This document shows positions 6,171 to 22,590 of a stretch of 26,857 bases of DNA, piece after piece (position 1 is the stretch's first letter; every line of letters starts with the position of its first letter). The notes under the pieces were generated by a model. The model had not been told where the DNA came from. It worked only from the letters and a program-made list of their open reading frames with translations, and did not search any database. Where the stretch lies: the IMG/VR virus record IMGVR_UViG_3300025294_000025, positions 1 to 26,857 of that record, one strand, 5' to 3'. Made by a program: the position numbers and the translations under genes. Source of the DNA: a virus.

Positions 6171-6187
6171 AGACCTAGATCAGGTCT
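6171..6187 (-). repeat. Inverted repeat over the ogr stop codon
   Basis: AGACCT and AGGTCT flank five bases and overlap the ogr stop codon. In the transcript the stem is followed by six C residues instead of U, so its termination strength is doubtful. Together with the hairpin at 6125-6142 it may reduce read-through from ogr into the primase. Confidence 0.35.
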
Positions 6188-6428
6188 TCAGCAGGTCCAG
6201 CTGCCGGTCATCGATGGCAGTGGCGCGAGCACGGCTGACGGGCAGATATGCCTGGGGATTGGGCTTTATGCTCGGCGCAATCGTCGTCGTAACGGACGTA
6301 ATGGCTTTGCAGGTATAGGCGCAGTCGACGTTGGGGCATTGCCAGTAGCTCTCTTTCGAGAGCAGCGACACCACGCGGCTGGTGCGGGTCTTCATGCGCG
6401 ACTCGCAATGTGGGCAGGTCAGTTTCAC
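6180..6428 (-). CDS. ogr: Ogr/Delta-type zinc-finger activator of late promoters
   Basis: 82 residues with the family's metal site CPHC-x22-CPNVDC (C5, C8, C31, C36), spaced exactly as in P2 Ogr (CX2CX22CX4C), with the shared TRTSR and SYWQCPNVDC stretches around it. Ogr-type proteins bind a dyad upstream of late promoters and recruit RNA polymerase through the alpha subunit. Two long dyads in front of V and FI in this window are the likely targets. The gene overlaps the upstream 64-aa gene by ATGA and belongs to the repressor-controlled early operon; in P2 it stands alone after D. The basic/polar tail after residue 60 is a little longer than in P2. Confidence 0.92.
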   Translation of the reverse strand: MKLTCPHCESRMKTRTSRVVSLLSKESYWQCPNVDCAYTCKAITSVTTTIAPSIKPNPQAYLPVSRARATAIDDRQLDLLKT

Positions 6429-8328: not shown

Positions 8329-10128
8329 ATGACCGACTTACCCGCTCAAGCATTTAGGGAACTGGCCGAAACTCACCTCGCAGCAGTCCAAAAACGACTT
8401 CCCAATGGAACCCTGGAACGGTTCGTACTGTTCGTCGAAGTCGTCCGCGCTATGGACTATTGGGGCATACATGGCTCCCTCGCAGGAGAGAGCCAGGAAG
8501 GTGCAGGGGAATCGCTCGATCTCATGTATTGGGGTTGGAACAGGGCAGTCGCGGAACTTTTTGAGCCGCTAGAGCAGCGTGGTGCCTTTCCTCTCATGGA
8601 GAGCACACAAGGCTCGCGTGCGCTCGCGGTCGGACTGATGCAGGAGTTTGGCAAGGTTTCGCTGCTTCAGAGGCTGGCCGACATGAGTGAAAAGGGTATC
8701 GCAGAACTCACCAGGGATGGAGACGAATTCCACGTCCGTACCGGCGCGGATGTGCGGGCGCTCTTCGCCGATGCTACTGAGCTGGACCGCCTAAAAGCCG
8801 CAGAAGTGCATTTACCGTCCTCGAACGCAGGCTGGGAAATGACATCGACAAGAAACGCAGAGCGCTTCCCAGGCATGCCCGGCAACTACATGGCCTTGGC
8901 CAATACGCCGGCGAAGCGTTGGCTCAGATCCGACATCGAGGAACTCATTAAACCCCTTGTAAGGCCATGGGACACCGGTCGCGGTGTCATGGTGGCCTAC
9001 GACGCTCGTAGTGAGGTAGACCAACACTACATGGCCGAGGCGCTCGCACTGGCCACATCTTGGCGCGAGGCCTCCGGCATCCACCCCAACGCAAAGCTCG
9101 GTACCATCACAGGGGCCGATGTTGCAGGAGTCAGTGCCGCGCTTATTTGCCTTCATTCCAAGCATTTTGCCTGCGTATCGGTGGCCAAGAAGCATTTCAG
9201 CCAAGTGTCTGTCCCTCAAAGCCTAACTATCTGGGGGCCAAGGACAGCGCTGGAGGAATCAATATCCATTGTGAGTGGTCGCGCGCTGCCAGTCGTCCAT
9301 GCAGCATTCAATGCTCTAGCGATGACCTCGGAGCAAGCAAAGAAATTGGCGAACCACTCGATGCCTCTGATTCCCCTGCTGTTTGACTTGGGTAACGGTT
9401 TCATCCTGCGCCCAGTTTCCTGCCTAACTCGAAATCCCTTCACCGCAGTCAAGACCCAACATCAATGGCTGGATTCGCGCACTGAACATGCCGTGGCCGC
9501 CGACCGTGAAGACTGGATGCGGTCGCATCTCTACGCCATGTTCAGTGGTCGCCGATATTCATGCTTTCCTGGCAACCTCAAGTTGCGCCATGCGGGCACA
9601 ACCCTCACTGACATCGACGCGATCGTATATGACAGGCTTACCGGAGACGTCGGACTCTTCCAACTGAAGTGGCAAGACTACTCGACGAACGATATTCGAC
9701 AGCTCCGAAGCAAAGCCGCAAACCTCGCAGCAGAGCTATTTGACTGGTCCGGCAAGGTGAGGTCTTGGATTCAAGAGTACGGAGTGTCCGCGCTAGACAA
9801 GTCGCTACGGCTAAAGAAAAAGCGGCGCGAGACAGTGAGGAATGTGTTCCTCTTTGCCATTTCAAAAGCGGCTGTCCGCACGCAAGGTTATGGCGTCGTC
9901 GTGGATGCACCTGATCTGGCCATGGCCGTCTGGCCGCAGTTTGCACGCGCACGAATGGAAATCGGCCCCTCGGACCGCACCCTGCGAGATATACACACCC
10001 AGCTTCTCGCGGAGTATGGGCAAGTGCCAAAAATTACGCCCATACCGACTTCGCTCGACGTAGCTGGGACCAAGGTTCACATCCACAATCTTTGGAACCG
10101 AATCGACCAACCCGAGGTTATGGCATAA
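8329..10128 (+). CDS. 599-aa protein with PD-(D/E)XK-like nuclease motif; candidate defence effector
   Basis: Starts at ATG 8329, three bases after the previous stop, with GAGAAG about 9 bases upstream. Residues 1-400 have no motif I can name and no membrane segment. Near the C-terminus, TDIDAIVYDRLTGD-VGLFQLKW (427-448) has the form of a PD-(D/E)XK nuclease core: hydrophobic strand with D428/D430, then Q445-x-K447 on the next strand, as in the QxK variant of Mrr-like enzymes. A helix follows (QLRSKAANLAAEL). GC content is visibly lower than in the flanking late genes, it faces the other way, and it lies between repressor and gene D, a usual place for cargo. Cleavage of foreign or host DNA is inferred, not shown. 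It converges on D across 29 bases. Confidence 0.85.
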   Translation: MTDLPAQAFRELAETHLAAVQKRLPNGTLERFVLFVEVVRAMDYWGIHGSLAGESQEGAGESLDLMYWGWNRAVAELFEPLEQRGAFPLMESTQGSRALAVGLMQEFGKVSLLQRLADMSEKGIAELTRDGDEFHVRTGADVRALFADATELDRLKAAEVHLPSSNAGWEMTSTRNAERFPGMPGNYMALANTPAKRWLRSDIEELIKPLVRPWDTGRGVMVAYDARSEVDQHYMAEALALATSWREASGIHPNAKLGTITGADVAGVSAALICLHSKHFACVSVAKKHFSQVSVPQSLTIWGPRTALEESISIVSGRALPVVHAAFNALAMTSEQAKKLANHSMPLIPLLFDLGNGFILRPVSCLTRNPFTAVKTQHQWLDSRTEHAVAADREDWMRSHLYAMFSGRRYSCFPGNLKLRHAGTTLTDIDAIVYDRLTGDVGLFQLKWQDYSTNDIRQLRSKAANLAAELFDWSGKVRSWIQEYGVSALDKSLRLKKKRRETVRNVFLFAISKAAVRTQGYGVVVDAPDLAMAVWPQFARARMEIGPSDRTLRDIHTQLLAEYGQVPKITPIPTSLDVAGTKVHIHNLWNRIDQPEVMA

Positions 10129-15381: not shown

Positions 15382-16554
15382 TTACGCGTTGACGGCTTCC
15401 GCGAATTGCATGAGATATCGGTCGGTGATGCGCTGACGCAGCGTCAGGTTTTCCAGCGGCGGTACCGGCGTGTAGTCGTAGTCGATGCCGAGCTGGCCAC
15501 CCTTGAGCGAGTCCTTGGGGTTGAACTCCGGGTCGTACCAGGCGGAGCCGCCGAGCAGATAGCCGTTGCGCGTCAGCGAGCGCATCTTTCCGTTGATGCC
15601 TTCCACAAGGTCGCGCACGAGCGAAGGCGTCATAGGCAGGTCCATGGCCCACGCGTGCGCCTCGGCCATGGTGTCCGCCAGCACCTGTGCCGTGCGGGTG
15701 TAGTTCTCGAACTGGAAGAGCGGATCGGAGCTGCAGGTGCGCGAACCCCAGAAGCGGAACCCTTGGAAGTTGATCAGCGTGGTGACGTCGTTCTGGTTCA
15801 GGTAGCCCGCGTCGGTGGCCGGATCCTGCAGATCCCAGAAGACGTCCTTGGACAGCCCGGTCACGCCGTTGATGGCCACGTTCGACAGCGTCTTGTGCCA
15901 GCCCACCTCGTTGTCGAGCTTCGCGCGCAGGCCCAGCGCGCGCGCCGTTGCAAACAGCGTGGTCTCGGCGTTGGACACAGTGTCCCAGCCGATGAAGTCG
16001 GGCCAAATGGTCATCAGCTCGCGCTGGCCGAAGTTGTCGCGGTACGCCACCGCTTCTTCCTTGGTCTCACAGCCGAACGCCGACACATAGGCGAAGGCGC
16101 GCAGCTTCTGCGCGATGCTGGCCAGCTCCGTGGCCACCGGCAGGCTGTCCATGCCCGGAATGCCGAGAATGCGCGGCGTGACGCCCAGGCTGTTCTTGGC
16201 CGACAGCAGCGCCTTCATGCCCGTGAAGCGGCCGTTGGCATCGGTGCCGCCGATCAGGTTGCTGGTGGTCTCGGCGTCGGTGGCGCCCTTGGCTACGCGC
16301 ACCACCACGGTCATCGGGTTGGCCTGGTCGGTGATGGCGTCTAGCGTCTTGGCAAGCGTGCCCGTGTCGCCGGCTTTGCCCAGCGACGACATAGGGCTGG
16401 TCAGCAGTACCGGCTTGTTGAGGGGAAAGACCGCCGCGTCCGCGTCTTCAGCGATACAGACGATGCCGGGCACGGCGGTCGCGATGGTACGAATGGGGCG
16501 AGTGCCTTCGTTGATTTCAACGACACGTACGCCGTGGTGGTATTCAGATGGCAT
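15382..16554 (-). CDS. FI: Contractile tail sheath protein FI
   Basis: 390 residues (P2 gpFI 396). ATG 16554 is the start because GGAGG stands 5 bases upstream and the protein begins with the family's [19 protein letters not shown]. Longer readings to 16806 run antisense-like through the neighbouring gene. Conserved stretches include [20 protein letters not shown] and the C-terminal [20 protein letters not shown] with [12 protein letters not shown]. It forms the contractile sheath around tube FII. It is the first gene after a 107-base gap that holds a long dyad, so it probably opens the FI-D operon. Confidence 0.96.
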
Positions 16555-16633
16555 GCAGTCCTCCGGGAGTGATCCTGACGATGGTGGGATCGTCCCGAAA
16601 GGATGCTGCGCACGCGCGAGGCTGTCTCTCGAA

Positions 16634-16664
16634 TGATGTTGTACGCCAGCGGCGCACAACATCA
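16634..16664 (-). promoter_or_regulatory. Long dyad upstream of FI: likely Ogr binding site
   Basis: TGATGTTGT-N13-ACAACATCA is a perfect 9-bp inverted repeat, with an inner CGCC/GGCG arm as well. Its centre (16649) is 95 bases before the FI start, and it overlaps the stop codon of the amidase-like gene. The core TGTTGT-N13-ACAACA recurs only before V, the other expected P2 late promoter. P2-family late promoters carry an Ogr/Delta dyad centred near -55, which would put the FI transcript start near 16594. As RNA the same sequence could fold into a strong hairpin, so a terminator role for the upstream operon is a second possibility. Confidence 0.7.
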
Positions 16665-17123
16665 GGCGCGTAGGGGGCGGGGAATTGACGCTGTGGGCGG
16701 CAGCATCCAGAGGTGTTGCGGGTACACGCGGCGGCGGAATTCTGGACGCACAAGTGGCTGGCCGGCAGCATCGAACGCCCATGCCACCAGCTCGGAACAG
16801 AACCATGCGTCGTCGGATTGCCAGTCGCGGCGTAGCGCGAGGCCGGCGAGCGCCGAGTAGTCGTATGGCTTTCCGAGCTGGGATGCAGCAGCGTCAATGA
16901 CAGCTTGCGGATTACGCGCGGGCAGATCCGCTATCGCGAAGTCTGCACTACGAGACAGCGCATCGGCCAGCGGCGCACGGCGCACGCCGTGAAGCGCCAC
17001 GGCTTCGATCACGCTGTCACCGTCCACCACGGCAACGTGTGACCAACGCGACCACGTGAAGGCACGGATGGCCACCGAGAGTGGCAGTCTCGTGGTGGAA
17101 AAGAGAACGCGCACGCTCGACAT
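16662..17123 (-). CDS. Permuted papain-like (YiiX/NlpC-type) amidase, accessory gene at the Z/fun position
   Basis: 153 residues from ATG 17123, two bases after the G-like stop. The order His (H29 in [11 protein letters not shown]) then Cys (C109 in [12 protein letters not shown]) is that of the circularly permuted YiiX/YaeF branch of NlpC/P60-like peptidases, and [12 protein letters not shown] precedes the Cys. Such enzymes cut amide or ester bonds in peptidoglycan or lipids. In P2 the same slot between G and FI carries lysogenic-conversion genes (Z/fun), so this may be cargo; alternatively it is a virion enzyme. It has no signal peptide. The upstream GGCGGG is a weak ribosome site. Confidence 0.8.
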
Positions 17124-17125
17124 GG

Positions 17126-17725
17126 TCAGCCCGCCGCGTTGCCGAGGTTTGCCACCTTGGCGTTGATGCCAGCGATAGCAGCATCCGCAATCGCAGTGGC
17201 GGCGTCGGCCATACTGGCGTTGCGCACGGCTTCCTTGGCCTTCAGGCGGGCGTCGCGAATCGCGTAGAGACCAGCATTCCATGCTGCGGCCTCGGCAAGG
17301 ATGTTCTCCGCCGCCTGCTTCGCTGTCCAGTTTTTGGCTTCGGCCCAGCTTCTGATGCTCGGTGGGCAATCGCCCGTGAATCCTGTCGCCTGGTAGCCCT
17401 TTGCCTCCGCCTCGGCGAGTTGGTACTCGGCGGCGCGCAGAGGGTCACCAGCGACAGCCAGGCGCGCTGCGTCGGCTGCGTCGTCGATGCGCTTGCACTG
17501 CGTCGCGCAGACTGTGGCAAGTGGCGGCGGCGGAAGTTCGACGTTGGCGCACGTGCCGTCGGCGAACACCTTCATCTGAGTGGTAGGGCGTTGCCCGGCG
17601 CGCAGTGCCTTGTAGTCTTCGGCCTTGATCTCGATGGAGCCGGCCGGCACCTCGGCATAGACGTCGCTCGGATAGAAGCCGATCACAACGTCGTTCGCGT
17701 CAGTGGTGACAAATACTTTCGACAT
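17126..17725 (-). CDS. Tail-fibre-associated protein in the G position
   Basis: 199 residues directly after the tail fibre gene, where P2 has the fibre chaperone G. The N-terminal 55 residues (KVFVTTDANDVVIGFYPSDV, then AEDYKALRAGQRP) look like the first domain of many tail fibre assembly proteins. A PPPP linker follows near 66-69. The rest is Ala-rich helix (ADAARLAVAGDPLRAAEYQL and later repeats of AxxA). This is unlike P2 gpG itself, so the call rests on position and the N-terminal style. A helper in fibre trimerisation or attachment is likely. GAGAGAG lies before the ATG. Confidence 0.75.
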   Translation of the reverse strand: MSKVFVTTDANDVVIGFYPSDVYAEVPAGSIEIKAEDYKALRAGQRPTTQMKVFADGTCANVELPPPPLATVCATQCKRIDDAADAARLAVAGDPLRAAEYQLAEAEAKGYQATGFTGDCPPSIRSWAEAKNWTAKQAAENILAEAAAWNAGLYAIRDARLKAKEAVRNASMADAATAIADAAIAGINAKVANLGNAAG

Positions 17726-17758
17726 GACTCGTACTCTCTCTAAAGGGGGGGTGGGGCG

Positions 17759-19216
17759 TTAGTAGCCGATCGACCAAATAAGCGTTCGGGTGCTACCGCT
17801 TCCATTGGTGTAGATATTCGCGCCGGATGTGGAGTACACAGACGTCGACCAGGTGAAGTTGCCGAAGCCAGTGTTCATGTTGCAGATCTGCATTCCGAAG
17901 CAACCACGTGGGAAAACCATGGCCCACGTCACGCCGTAGACGGTGTTAGGAACAACGCCGGTCCACGGGCCAGTGTCGATCCACTGAACAATGAGTCCGC
18001 CCATCCAGTCCGGGAATTTGATATAGCCGGCAGCGTTGAAAACGAACCCGCTACGCAGCTTCCTGGGCGTAACGATAGTGTTGTCATCGGTGCCGGCGTT
18101 CGTTTGTGCTTGAGTGGCGAGCTTTGCCCATCCGAAGACCGTCTCCGTGGCTTGCACCAGAAGCGCACCGAGCCATGCGGACATGCGCGTCTTGAGCTTC
18201 TTCGGCGTGACAATATGGCTGTCTTCGTCGCCGGCCGTGACCTCGGCGTCGGTGGCCACCATGGCGGGCGCTGCGACCGACTCAGTCGGCGTCGGGTTCG
18301 TGCCACCTGTCACGCGGCCGCGCACGTCCACGCTCACGCGGCTGTACGTCCCTGCGGTGACGCCGGTTCTGCCGCCGAGCATCTCAAACACGAGCGCGGT
18401 AGTGCCGAGCGTAATCGGGGCATCGGTAGCGAGTTGCCACACGGAGTCCGCGTTCACGTTGCCCTGCTCGACGGTCAAGAACAGACCGGGCGTGACCTCG
18501 ATGCTGACATCGGCGTCGGCCGAGCGCGCCCAGGCGCCGGCGGCTGCAATGTAGATCCCGTTGTCCTTGCCGACGGCCTGGTCTTTCACCAGCACGCGGG
18601 CACCAGCGGTCAGTACGACGCCGTCGACGGTAAGCAGACCCGACAGGGCGGCAACAGGGCCGATAGTGGCGACCAGAACGGATTGCTTGCCGTCTTGCTT
18701 TGCCAGCTCGGCTGCAATCTGCGCGTCGGTATATGCGCGGCCCTGCGCAGCCAGCGTGTCGGCGTAGCCGCGCGTGGCGAGTACGATGGCAGGGTCGACC
18801 TTCAATTCAACCGTTGCGCCGCTGGTGTTCAGACAGACGAGGCGGACCACTTGAGTGCGCGCTGACCCTTCGGACAACACCGGCTTGTAGGTCTCGGGGA
18901 TGTTCGAGTAGTAGCACAGGGTGCCGTCCTCGGAATGGATGCCGGCCTCGCGGATCCACCAGCCGCCTTCCGTCTCTGGGATGACCTGCTCGGCAATGAA
19001 CTGGCTCGCATTGTCCGGGTCTTGCGTGAGCGCATTAATCGGTGCGCGGCGTTGTTCGTTGATGAGCGCCGTACGCAAACGGTTCGGGATAGGCAGGGCG
19101 CCATTTCCATCGCCCACAGACATGTGCGTGAACTTGAGTGGTACGCCGAGTGCCTGAGCGTTGGCGAGCTTCGCCTCGCCGGCAGCGGTAGGGATGAGGA
19201 AGTAGGTTTGCGCCAT
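17759..19216 (-). CDS. H: Tail fibre protein H
   Basis: 485 residues. The N-terminus (AQTYFLIPTAAGEAKLANAQ, then GVPLKFTHMSVGDGNG) is the conserved P2-type baseplate-attachment domain (DUF3751-like), with GGWWIREAGIHSEDGTLCYY near 84-103. A middle strand-rich shaft includes GARVLVKDQAVGKDNGIYIA. Two copies of a fibre repeat ending IVTPKKLKTRM / IVTPRKLRSGF sit at 322-345 and 368-391. The Trp/Gly/Asn-rich tip (406-485, with GLIVQW and ending LIWSIGY) is the Gp53-like receptor-binding end. It decides host range. It is shorter than P2 gpH (669) and starts at ATG three bases after I. Confidence 0.93.
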   Translation of the reverse strand: MAQTYFLIPTAAGEAKLANAQALGVPLKFTHMSVGDGNGALPIPNRLRTALINEQRRAPINALTQDPDNASQFIAEQVIPETEGGWWIREAGIHSEDGTLCYYSNIPETYKPVLSEGSARTQVVRLVCLNTSGATVELKVDPAIVLATRGYADTLAAQGRAYTDAQIAAELAKQDGKQSVLVATIGPVAALSGLLTVDGVVLTAGARVLVKDQAVGKDNGIYIAAAGAWARSADADVSIEVTPGLFLTVEQGNVNADSVWQLATDAPITLGTTALVFEMLGGRTGVTAGTYSRVSVDVRGRVTGGTNPTPTESVAAPAMVATDAEVTAGDEDSHIVTPKKLKTRMSAWLGALLVQATETVFGWAKLATQAQTNAGTDDNTIVTPRKLRSGFVFNAAGYIKFPDWMGGLIVQWIDTGPWTGVVPNTVYGVTWAMVFPRGCFGMQICNMNTGFGNFTWSTSVYSTSGANIYTNGSGSTRTLIWSIGY

Positions 19217-19219
19217 GGC

Positions 19220-19855
19220 TCACAGGGGGTTGACGGTGATCGTGTCGACCAGGTGAACGGCGCCTGCGTAGAGCGATGCGCCGGCCACCTCGACGGGTTC
19301 GGGGGAATACGGGTAGACGGTGATGACGTCGCCAAGCAGCGGCGCGCCTGTATAGCGGACAGCGCCACGCGTCTCCACGCTGATAGCCAGGCCGGTCAGG
19401 TGCCTGGAAAGCGGCTTGGCGTCGTCGATGAGGCGCTCCAACTCCGCGTACATCTGTTCGGTAATGCCGGTATCCAGCACGCCCACATCCAGATGGAACG
19501 TGCCGCGCGGGCCTTCCGGCACCATGTCGTACCAGGGCACCACACGGATCAGGTAGCCCAGCGGCTCGATGGCCCGGCGGATGGCCCCGACAGTGCCCTT
19601 GCGCTGGTGGACAAAAAACGATGCATCGATCACGGCACGCTTGGTGCCTTCCGGCCAGCTCGGATCCCAACGGTCTACCGACCTCTCCCACGCGAGGAAG
19701 GGCAGCACACTGGCCGGGCATCGTGCACCATCGCCTAGATCCCGGATCGGCACCGGGATACGCTCAATGGCGGCGCCGGCCATTGCGATGTTTCGCTCAA
19801 TGGCCGTGGCATTGGGCGGCAGGATCCTAGTCACGGGCGCCACCATCCATGACAT
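19220..19855 (-). CDS. I: Baseplate protein I
   Basis: 211 residues (P2 gpI 176). Landmarks: RILPPNATAIERNIAMAG at the N-terminus, LPFLAWERSVDRWDPSWPEG near 70-89, and RRAIEPLGYLIRVVPWYD. These match the phage tail protein I family, which makes the outer baseplate wedge beside J. The first ATG (19855) overlaps the end of J by 29 bases; an ATG three codons later is an equal candidate, since neither has a clear ribosome site. Confidence 0.93.
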   Translation of the reverse strand: MSWMVAPVTRILPPNATAIERNIAMAGAAIERIPVPIRDLGDGARCPASVLPFLAWERSVDRWDPSWPEGTKRAVIDASFFVHQRKGTVGAIRRAIEPLGYLIRVVPWYDMVPEGPRGTFHLDVGVLDTGITEQMYAELERLIDDAKPLSRHLTGLAISVETRGAVRYTGAPLLGDVITVYPYSPEPVEVAGASLYAGAVHLVDTITVNPL

Positions 19856-20741
19856 TCACGGCGGTGCAGTACGCCGCCTGAGTTTCGTCAAGCACCACAT
19901 CCTCCGGAGGCGAGCGGACCTCTACGCGCGACACGCCTTCAGCAAACAGGGCACTGTTGATGGCTGAGCGGTCGATGTCCCGCCCGAGTCTCCGGCTTTC
20001 CCGACGGTAGGCATCAATACGCTTGGCGGCCTCGGCCAATACAAGCTCGCGCTCGGGTCCGTTGCTCTTCGTAAAGACAGTGGCGTCGATCTCGTAGTGC
20101 GTGATGCGGGCGGACTGAACGGTCAGGCGGTCTGCCAGTGGCCGCACGTCTTCATCGCTGAGCGCCACCTCCACATTGTCCAGCACGTCCCTTTCGACGC
20201 TGCCGTCGCCATCGATGCCGAGAACGGTGATGACGACTTCGCATGGATCCGGGCTGATCGCACTGACATCGGCAATGCGACCGTCCGCGCTGCGTGCGTG
20301 GAACTTGTAGCCTTCGCGCGGCCCAGCAGTGGACAGCCCCTCGAAGGCGAGCTGCGTGCGCTCGGTCAGCGAGGCGTCCTCTTCCATCAACGCAGCTGTG
20401 GGCGGCTCGGTGGTGGTGTCCTCGGGCGTCACGACCAGCCGCTCCACGTTGTAGTTCGCGGCGACGTGTTCAAGGTCATTGCCCTTGGCATAAGCCAGCA
20501 TGCGCGCACGCGAGGCATCGTTCACGCGCTGACGCAGGATGGTCTCGCGGTAGGCGTTCTCCTGAATCAGCTTGACCACGGGTTCGGATTCCAGCTGCAG
20601 CGTCTTGGCCACGTCGGCTTGCTGATCGACCGGATAGAGGCCGATGTAGTACGCCTTGCGCTCCGCAACAATGGTCTCGTAGTCGATGTTCTCGACCACA
20701 TCGGGAACCGGAAGGCGCGTCAAATCAATGGGCGTCGTCAT
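19827..20741 (-). CDS. J: Baseplate protein J
   Basis: 304 residues, the same size as P2 gpJ (302). The N-terminus (IDLTRLPVPDVVENIDYETI) and the motif ARMLAYAKGNDLEHVAANYN near 85-104 are typical of baseplate J proteins, as are the later DPCEVVITVLGIDGDGS and the ALFAEGVSRVEVRSP end. It forms the edge of the baseplate with I and W and links to the fibres. It overlaps W by ATGA. Confidence 0.95.
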   Translation of the reverse strand: MTTPIDLTRLPVPDVVENIDYETIVAERKAYYIGLYPVDQQADVAKTLQLESEPVVKLIQENAYRETILRQRVNDASRARMLAYAKGNDLEHVAANYNVERLVVTPEDTTTEPPTAALMEEDASLTERTQLAFEGLSTAGPREGYKFHARSADGRIADVSAISPDPCEVVITVLGIDGDGSVERDVLDNVEVALSDEDVRPLADRLTVQSARITHYEIDATVFTKSNGPERELVLAEAAKRIDAYRRESRRLGRDIDRSAINSALFAEGVSRVEVRSPPEDVVLDETQAAYCTAVNVMDGGARD

Positions 20742-21100
20742 ACATTGGCCTCACGTAGGGGGATGGACAGCGTGCCGAGCGGTGTGCTGCGCGCGCCGTC
20801 GACGCGATCCGCATCGAGATCCACCGTCATGGCACCTTCGCCATTTATCAAAAAGGAGGCGGAGTTGACCTGGACGCGCGGCTCCCATTTCACGATGGCG
20901 GCAACTGCCGCCGACATGACTCGCAGCCGCGTGATCTCGTTCAGTGGCTGATCGATCAGCGTCGGGATTTGGGAGCCGTAGGTGCGCCGCATGACACGCG
21001 CGCCTTCCTGCGTGGTCAGAATGTCGCGGACGGACTGCCAGATGTGAGCCAGATCGCTGATGGCGCGGCCACTCGCACTGTTGAGGCCGAGGTAGGTCAT
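20738..21100 (-). CDS. W: Baseplate protein W (gp25-like)
   Basis: 120 residues (P2 gpW 115). The start ATG 21100 overlaps the V stop as ATGA; a reading from 21118 adds six residues without reason. It belongs to the gp25/lysozyme-like baseplate family: DLAHIWQSVRDILTTQEGAR, then RRTYGSQIPTLIDQPLNE near 42-59, the conserved stretch that contacts the sheath. It initiates sheath assembly at the baseplate. Confidence 0.94.
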   Translation of the reverse strand: MTYLGLNSASGRAISDLAHIWQSVRDILTTQEGARVMRRTYGSQIPTLIDQPLNEITRLRVMSAAVAAIVKWEPRVQVNSASFLINGEGAMTVDLDADRVDGARSTPLGTLSIPLREANV

Positions 21101-21714
21101 CGCGTGCCTTCCGTCCAAACGCCACCGCGCTGCACGCCGCCGTGGCCGTGGTCATCAACCACCACGCCATTGGACGAAAGCTTGCCGCCCTGGTGGTTGA
21201 AGTCCCCCGTGATGACGTTGCCGTTCGCGCCGCCCTTGCCCGCGATGCCGTTCTGGTAGGAAAGCAACCCCTTGACGGTCACATCGCCATCGAACGTGGT
21301 GTCCGGGCACTTCACCAGCACGCTGGTGGCGGCCTCGACAATCACTTTCTGAATGCCCGCCAGCGACAGGGTGCCGGAGGAGTGGTTGTAGGTCGTCGTC
21401 GCGCCATCCGGATACAGCGTGACCGTTTCGTCCGCGCTATGGCTCGGGGTGTCGTTAGCGTCAGAGGGGATGCCGCACAGCACGATGCCGTTGCGTGTCT
21501 CGCCGCTGGGGCAGAAGAGCAACACCTGCTCACCAACGGTCGGCGGACTCCACGTGCGCGTGCTGCCTGCACGGTGCTCTGCCCACGGGAGCCAGTCGGT
21601 ATCCAGACCGCCCGACGTGATGCGCACACGCGGCGGCTTGCCATGCTGGATCTCGGCAACGGTGCCGGTGCGCAGCAGGTTCTCGATCAGTCGGAGGATT
21701 TCAGCGGTGTCCAT
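21097..21714 (-). CDS. V: Baseplate spike protein V
   Basis: 205 residues (P2 gpV 211). The N-terminal helix and OB-fold part reads LRTGTVAEIQHGKPPRVRIT and WAEHRAGSTRTWSPPTVGEQ. A beta-helix with short repeats spans about 95-180, and the tip DDHGHGG (H189, H191) is the His-x-His iron-binding apex known from P2 and phi92 spikes. A trimer pierces the outer membrane. It starts at ATG 21714 with no good ribosome site. It opens the V-W-J-I-H-G operon, with a long dyad centred only 56 bases upstream. Confidence 0.95.
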   Translation of the reverse strand: MDTAEILRLIENLLRTGTVAEIQHGKPPRVRITSGGLDTDWLPWAEHRAGSTRTWSPPTVGEQVLLFCPSGETRNGIVLCGIPSDANDTPSHSADETVTLYPDGATTTYNHSSGTLSLAGIQKVIVEAATSVLVKCPDTTFDGDVTVKGLLSYQNGIAGKGGANGNVITGDFNHQGGKLSSNGVVVDDHGHGGVQRGGVWTEGTR

Positions 21715-21756
21715 ACCGCTAGCGTGCGCTGCGCGCGCGCGGCGGTCATGCGATTC

Positions 21757-21783
21757 CTGTTGTGAAACTCCGCATCACAACAG
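21757..21783 (-). promoter_or_regulatory. Dyad upstream of V: likely Ogr binding site
   Basis: CTGTTGT-N13-ACAACAG is a perfect 7-bp inverted repeat with the same core and spacing as the dyad before FI. Its centre is 21770. If the centre sits at -55 as in P2-family late promoters, the transcript would begin at about 21715, right at the V start codon, leaving almost no leader. Either the geometry differs here or the V message is nearly leaderless. Confidence 0.68.
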
Positions 21784-21891: not shown

Positions 21892-22530
21892 TCAAGCTAC
21901 AAAAATGCCGCCTTGATAGGTTCCGAGTTCCACAAGCACAGTCGTCTTGCGGCACTCTTTGAACTCGAACTCATCGCTATCGACTGGACCTCGCGCCATC
22001 ACAAACTCTTCCTTTTCAAGGTCGTATTCTTCTGTTACGAACTTGTGCGCCTCTACTCCAGCGAAAGTCCGCTTGGACAAGCACCACTTTCCATCGATGT
22101 TTTTCCAGATGTGCCGTGTGTGCCCGCGCACGTGCTGCTCGCTGACATTCACTCCCCCGTCATCTTCGATTTCGAGTGCCGCGTCGGTCGGGTTAAATGA
22201 GTCAGAGTATCTGAGTGCATCTGCGCTAACCTGCGTAGAGAAACATCCGGGTGAACGTTCGCTTGCAATGCACAGCAAACGAACGACACCCCTGGTATCT
22301 ACATCTTCAACTTCGAAAATGGCGGCGATCACTCCATCTTTTGTGGCGGACATCACGCTACGCGCACCTGGTGGAAGCTGACCGCCGAAAAGGCCGCGGC
22401 ACTGCCTTTCGAGTGAAGCCGCGGCCCAATCCGGCAACCCAGTAGCGGCTGCGGCCGAGACAGTCGGTGCTATGAAACTCGCTAGCGTCCAGCTAATAAA
22501 TTGGCGACGCGATGGGCCTGCAGTTTCCAT
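21892..22530 (-). CDS. Exported protein with twin-arginine signal, accessory gene between S and V
   Basis: 212 residues from ATG 22530, with GGAG 9 bases upstream. The N-terminus SRRQFISWTLASFIAPTVSA is a twin-arginine signal (RR at about 8-9, hydrophobic core, then AxA-type cleavage site near 28-32). The mature part is acidic, with three or four cysteines, and includes GHTRHIWKNIDGKWCLSKRT and VTEEYDLEKEEFVMARGPVD. I do not recognise the family. GC is lower than in neighbouring tail genes. It interrupts the late region at the slot of P2 orf30 and so is probable lysogenic-conversion cargo. A TACACT box about 30 bases upstream might be its own -10, without a good -35. Confidence 0.8.
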   Translation of the reverse strand: METAGPSRRQFISWTLASFIAPTVSAAAATGLPDWAAASLERQCRGLFGGQLPPGARSVMSATKDGVIAAIFEVEDVDTRGVVRLLCIASERSPGCFSTQVSADALRYSDSFNPTDAALEIEDDGGVNVSEQHVRGHTRHIWKNIDGKWCLSKRTFAGVEAHKFVTEEYDLEKEEFVMARGPVDSDEFEFKECRKTTVLVELGTYQGGIFVA

Positions 22531-22590
22531 GCTCAGTGCTCCGTTAAGTGTCGAAGCGCAGTGTAGCTTGAAACCCAAAAAGCCAGAGTC

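Follow-up and report, generated by a model that had tools for sequence, protein, structure and literature searches.

Two TGTTGT-N13-ACAACA dyads as probable Ogr operators of the F and V late promoters in a fragment of a P2-like prophage

Introduction

The Ogr protein of phage P2 is known to contact the host RNA polymerase. The consensus of the P2 late promoters is TGT-N12-ACA, and sites of this form have also been proposed for the Stenotrophomonas phage Smp131, in which PP' and PO' are placed on one site, the tail operons are rearranged, and Ogr carries a CX2CX22CX4C motif (PMC3931495). A longer version of the motif, TGTTGT-(X)13-ACAACA, was found in all four late promoter regions of phage phiRSY1 as an exact match to that of phiRSA1 (Fujiwara et al. 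2008, as cited in PMC5694545). In these phages the motif occupies positions −50 to −90 relative to the start codons and the Ogr homologue is encoded away from the F operon, and for phiRSY1 the authors report no sigma-70-type promoter (PMC5694545). In the annotated record of P2, the dyad is centered at −55 to −57, one activator site serves both pO and pP, the transcript of V starts at the first base of its coding sequence, and the P mRNA has a 22-nt leader.

In this work we analysed a stretch of 26,857 bases (the window), which is the entire public record of a fragment of a P2-like prophage; the closest named hosts of its relatives are Cupriavidus and a 'Ralstonia' sp. The window contains the same genes as P2 and the phiRSA1/phiRSY1 motif in identical form. 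Its dyads differ from the P2 sites, which have N12 and a weak right half-site, in having 13 bases between the innermost TGT and ACA, and Smp131 differs from the window in the same spacing. The sites therefore lie outside the P2 consensus; we regard the N13 spacing as a branch difference among P2-type promoters and assign the sites to the phiRSA1/phiRSY1-type motif. The ogr gene is located in the early region, unlike that of P2, which follows D. The Burkholderia phage KS5 (Kisquinquevirus), whose Ogr is 49% identical to that of the window, shares the core-promoter geometry and has N13 sites that are symmetric as well, at V, F, and O/P, but differs in the outermost base (GGTTGT/ACAACC at F and O/P, CGTTGT/ACAACC at V).

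Results

A scan of the window for TGTTGT-N13-ACAACA revealed two exact copies and no third one. As read on the plus strand, these are TGTTGTACGCCAGCGGCGCACAACA at 16637–16661 and TGTTGTGAAACTCCGCATCACAACA at 21758–21782, corresponding to putative operators, on the minus strand, of the F promoter (PF) and the V promoter (PV), respectively. The symmetry extends beyond the 6-bp core in both cases, to GATGTTGT/ACAACATC at the F site (16635–16663; 12 of 13 positions paired if extended inwards) and to 9-bp arms, CTGTTGTGA/TCACAACAG, at the V site (21757–21783). A preliminary description of this DNA had proposed two matched dyads with the same core and spacer before FI and V, and both proved exact; the outer limits it gave (16634–16664 and 21757–21783) agree to within one base, the error being one base at most. 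About 0.0004 chance copies of the exact pattern are expected per window from base composition, and with up to two mismatches there were two matches vs 0.39 expected in shuffled sequences. Perfect palindromes with 6-bp arms and a 13-base gap are not enriched as a class (12 vs 9.7 expected), and TGTTGT is the only arm seen twice; the signal thus resides in the repetition of the same arm.

The late genes are encoded on the minus strand, in groups comprising M (cut off), L, X, holin, endolysin, Rz, R, and S; V, W, J, I, H, and G; and FI, FII, E, T, U, and D. Gene order and protein families identify the gene directly downstream of each dyad, as had been anticipated: V, the baseplate spike (21097–21714, minus strand), heads the operon V-W-J-I-H-G, with its start at 21714, 56 bp from the dyad, and FI, the tail sheath (15382–16554, minus strand), heads the operon FI-FII-E-T-U-D, with its start at 16554, 95 bp from the dyad. 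The presence of an ogr gene was borne out as well. The gene at 6180–6428 (minus strand) matched the Ogr/Delta family PF04606 with 56.4 bits against a cut-off of 26.3, and its translation contains the complete late-activator zinc finger C-x2-C-x22-C-x4-C, formed by C5, C8, C31, and C36.

Three further genes were observed in this setting. A YiiX-type amidase (PF05708, C92) is encoded at 16662–17150 (minus strand) between G and the FI promoter, with a stop codon that overlaps the start of the F dyad. Between S and V, a gene at 21892–22533 (minus strand) encodes a protein with a twin-arginine-type signal, SRRQFISWTLA; it had no match in Pfam or PHROG and is likely a cargo gene. A 599-aa gene lies on the opposite strand (8329–10128, plus strand) between the repressor region and D.

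To get insight into the conservation of the V site, V loci were taken from IMG/VR and GTDB genomes, yielding 40 upstream regions that are mutually less than 75% identical. A perfect GTTGT-N13-ACAAC, centered 55.5 or 56.5 bp before V, was present in 30 of them, when about four perfect 5-bp-arm palindromes of any sequence with that gap would be expected anywhere in the set. Outside the dyad, the DNA upstream of V varies freely among relatives. In other lineages the arms are changed and still symmetric, as in CTTGT/ACAAG (L075), TTTGT/ACAAA (L101), and CTTCT/AGAAG (L099), and this covariation with maintenance of symmetry is the behavior of a two-fold symmetric protein site. Across relatives the site is kept 55.5–57.5 bp before V; some of them (L006, L008) have an imperfect V dyad. 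The F site is also kept in relatives, and an F dyad was not recognizable by pattern in L010 and L012.

The window stops within M, so that the O/P/Q region is outside the contig. In the relatives, the O-P intergenic region contains a single dyad that is common to the divergent O and P genes, with a −10 element on both sides. Its distance to the start of P is 55.5 bp in most relatives (69.5–73.5 bp for P starts that had been extrapolated to a point before the ATG at the matching position), and that to O is 75–119 bp. The third copy predicted before O and near P/Q was accordingly found, in relatives and as one dyad for both promoters. The set of late-promoter sites hence consists of F and V in the window and O/P in relatives only; as the O/P site serves two promoters, it completes, together with the two window sites, the four-promoter arrangement of phiRSA1 and phiRSY1.

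We then aligned 48 distinct promoters of the V, F, O, and P types on the dyad center. An A at +45 and a T at +49 from the center were found in 40 of them. For the F and O promoters, where the dyad is the sole anchor of the alignment, this combination occurred in 20 of 23, the best value at any offset in 2000 shuffles being 6. A −10 element is therefore located at +44 to +49 at all four late promoter types. When each of the four promoter types was considered on its own, a weak TTGACA-like −35 element peaked at +21 (+21 to +26), at P in a tie with a second offset, resulting in a 17-bp spacer between both elements. On the minus strand of the window, the corresponding hexamers are ATGACC (21744–21749) and CACGCT (21721–21726, with A at −11 and T at −7) for PV, and GAGACA (16623–16628) and CATCCT (16600–16605) for PF. 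If this T is taken as −7 and this A as −11, transcription would start at +56, which sets the dyad at −56, in keeping with a center about 55 bp before a transcript start placed via the −10. The activator sites and starts annotated in P2 follow this geometry too. From this geometry the FI mRNA is predicted to begin at 16593 (minus strand) with a 39-nt leader containing GGAGG. A standard sigma-70 scan detected no promoter at the window sites, as expected for activator-dependent promoters and in agreement with the phiRSY1 result. Alignment on the dyad nevertheless suggests that the core promoters are weak and of sigma-70 type, nnGACn-17 bp-nAnnnT, in contrast with the phiRSY1 report. The fixed distance from dyad to −10 at the four late promoters and the conservation in relatives support the earlier proposal that the two dyads mark the FI and V late promoters.

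A Shine-Dalgarno-like sequence precedes 40 of 41 F genes, and was found before only 1 of 22 V genes in the beta-proteobacterial set and before none of 26 in the enterobacterial one. P starts 56–57 bases from the dyad center in this branch, and no Shine-Dalgarno sequence was found in four of its five distinct cases. We predict that the transcripts of V, and of P in this branch, begin with the A of the start codon and are thus leaderless, the V mRNA of the window beginning at 21714 (minus strand); this prediction rests on the promoter geometry, the lack of a Shine-Dalgarno sequence, and the P2 annotation of V, and differs from P2 with regard to the P leader. The reference list of a paper on leaderless genes includes Christie and Calendar (1985).

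The DNA just before V showed an additional trait. A small GC-rich inverted repeat, with arms that differ among phages, encloses the −10 in many of them, including the window (21676–21755), L069, L075, L105, L120, and KS5, and also in P2, and enterobacterial P2-like phages have a TGCCG/CGGCA hairpin at about −22 before V. This second repeat was considered as a folding element and rejected: in this branch, folding of the last 24–40 bases before V was on average only weakly more stable than that of shuffled sequences (mean z −0.5), and in the beta group it did not exceed that before F. The enterobacterial V set showed a clearer hairpin (mean z −1.65).

Regarding the activator, Ogr proteins with RTSR (those of the window, KS5, P2, and most relatives) go with GTTGT half-sites, and those with RTSE or RSTE (L075, L077, L099, L101, L105, L122, L263) with half-sites that mostly begin with C or T. 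In one Pseudomonas-type group with 42 RTSE sites, the first base was C in 58 half-sites, G in 18, and T in 8, counts that ignore kinship. This mixture rules out a strict code in which R reads G and E reads C, and indicates a bias rather than a rule; we propose a loose link between the RTSR/RTSE residue and the base with which the half-site begins.

Discussion

Altogether, the data point, with a probability of about 94%, to the two dyads being operators of the zinc-finger activator Ogr at late promoters of the P2 type. Ogr, produced from the early region, would bind the two-fold symmetric TGTTGT-N13-ACAACA centered at around −55/−56, contact the host RNA polymerase, and activate the weak core promoters. 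The V-W-J-I-H-G and FI-FII-E-T-U-D tail operons would thereby be switched on late in infection, and the third site, identified in relatives and outside the contig, would drive P-Q and O-N-M-L-lysis-R-S in opposite directions.

A dyad by itself names no protein, and the same symmetry could serve another dimeric regulator, either a phage repressor or a host factor. We consider this very improbable, as the dyads occur at late promoters only, in the position of the P2 Ogr site and always 44–49 bp from the −10, and as the type of dyad shifts with the type of Ogr, from GTTGT with RTSR to a first base that is mostly C or T with RTSE/RSTE. Slightly less credible still is that the repeats act as RNA hairpins, for instance as terminators that close the preceding operons and stand before V and FI by coincidence. 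The F dyad, which starts at the stop codon of the preceding gene, can indeed fold as a 14-bp hairpin (z −3.67), but there is no T-run, and a terminator scan was empty at both sites. Furthermore, the single site between P and O in relatives separates divergent genes and is not at the end of any operon, and the spacers differ among sites with no consistent pairing, in contrast to the TGTTGT arms and their distance to the −10, which are kept.

The remaining alternative, that the dyads are chance or inherited sequence devoid of function, draws on the F site, whose spacer is identical in five close relatives; because they share it, their agreement at F is not independent. The V site argues otherwise, being retained in three quarters of regions that differ by more than a quarter of their sequence when the exact pattern would hardly ever arise by chance, and we regard this explanation as refuted by the conservation data.

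The assignment of the dyads to Ogr being the preferred reading, a broader one can be put forward tentatively, at somewhat short of even odds. In the beta-proteobacterial P2-like branch, the V and P operons would be leaderless because the Ogr site sets the start of transcription right at their start codon, with F and O keeping leaders, and the Ogr residue after RTS (R or E) would bias which base comes first in the half-site (G vs mostly C or T), making operator specificity predictable from the protein.

Since this motif is known from published work on phiRSA1 and phiRSY1, the window represents a further, well-supported example of a known switch, and no new kind of system is opened up. What is new here is the −35/17-bp/−10 anatomy, the sequence evidence for leaderless V and, in this branch, P, and the loose link between Ogr residue and half-site base. 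A motif proposed from few genomes is now backed by a comparison of dozens of phage genomes. With the full promoter anatomy at hand (operator, −35, −10, and start), late operons can be recognized directly in P2-like prophages that lack annotation, in Cupriavidus, Ralstonia, Burkholderia, and their relatives.

Additional dyads were observed in two relatives. In G003, an extra exact copy with a correctly placed −10 lies directly upstream of gene R (L010:6082–6106), where it may form a fifth promoter for Ogr within the lysis-R-S region. A copy with one mismatch, TGTAGT-N13-ACAACA, is present about 3 kb from ogr in both G003 (32188–32212) and G004 (49903–49927).
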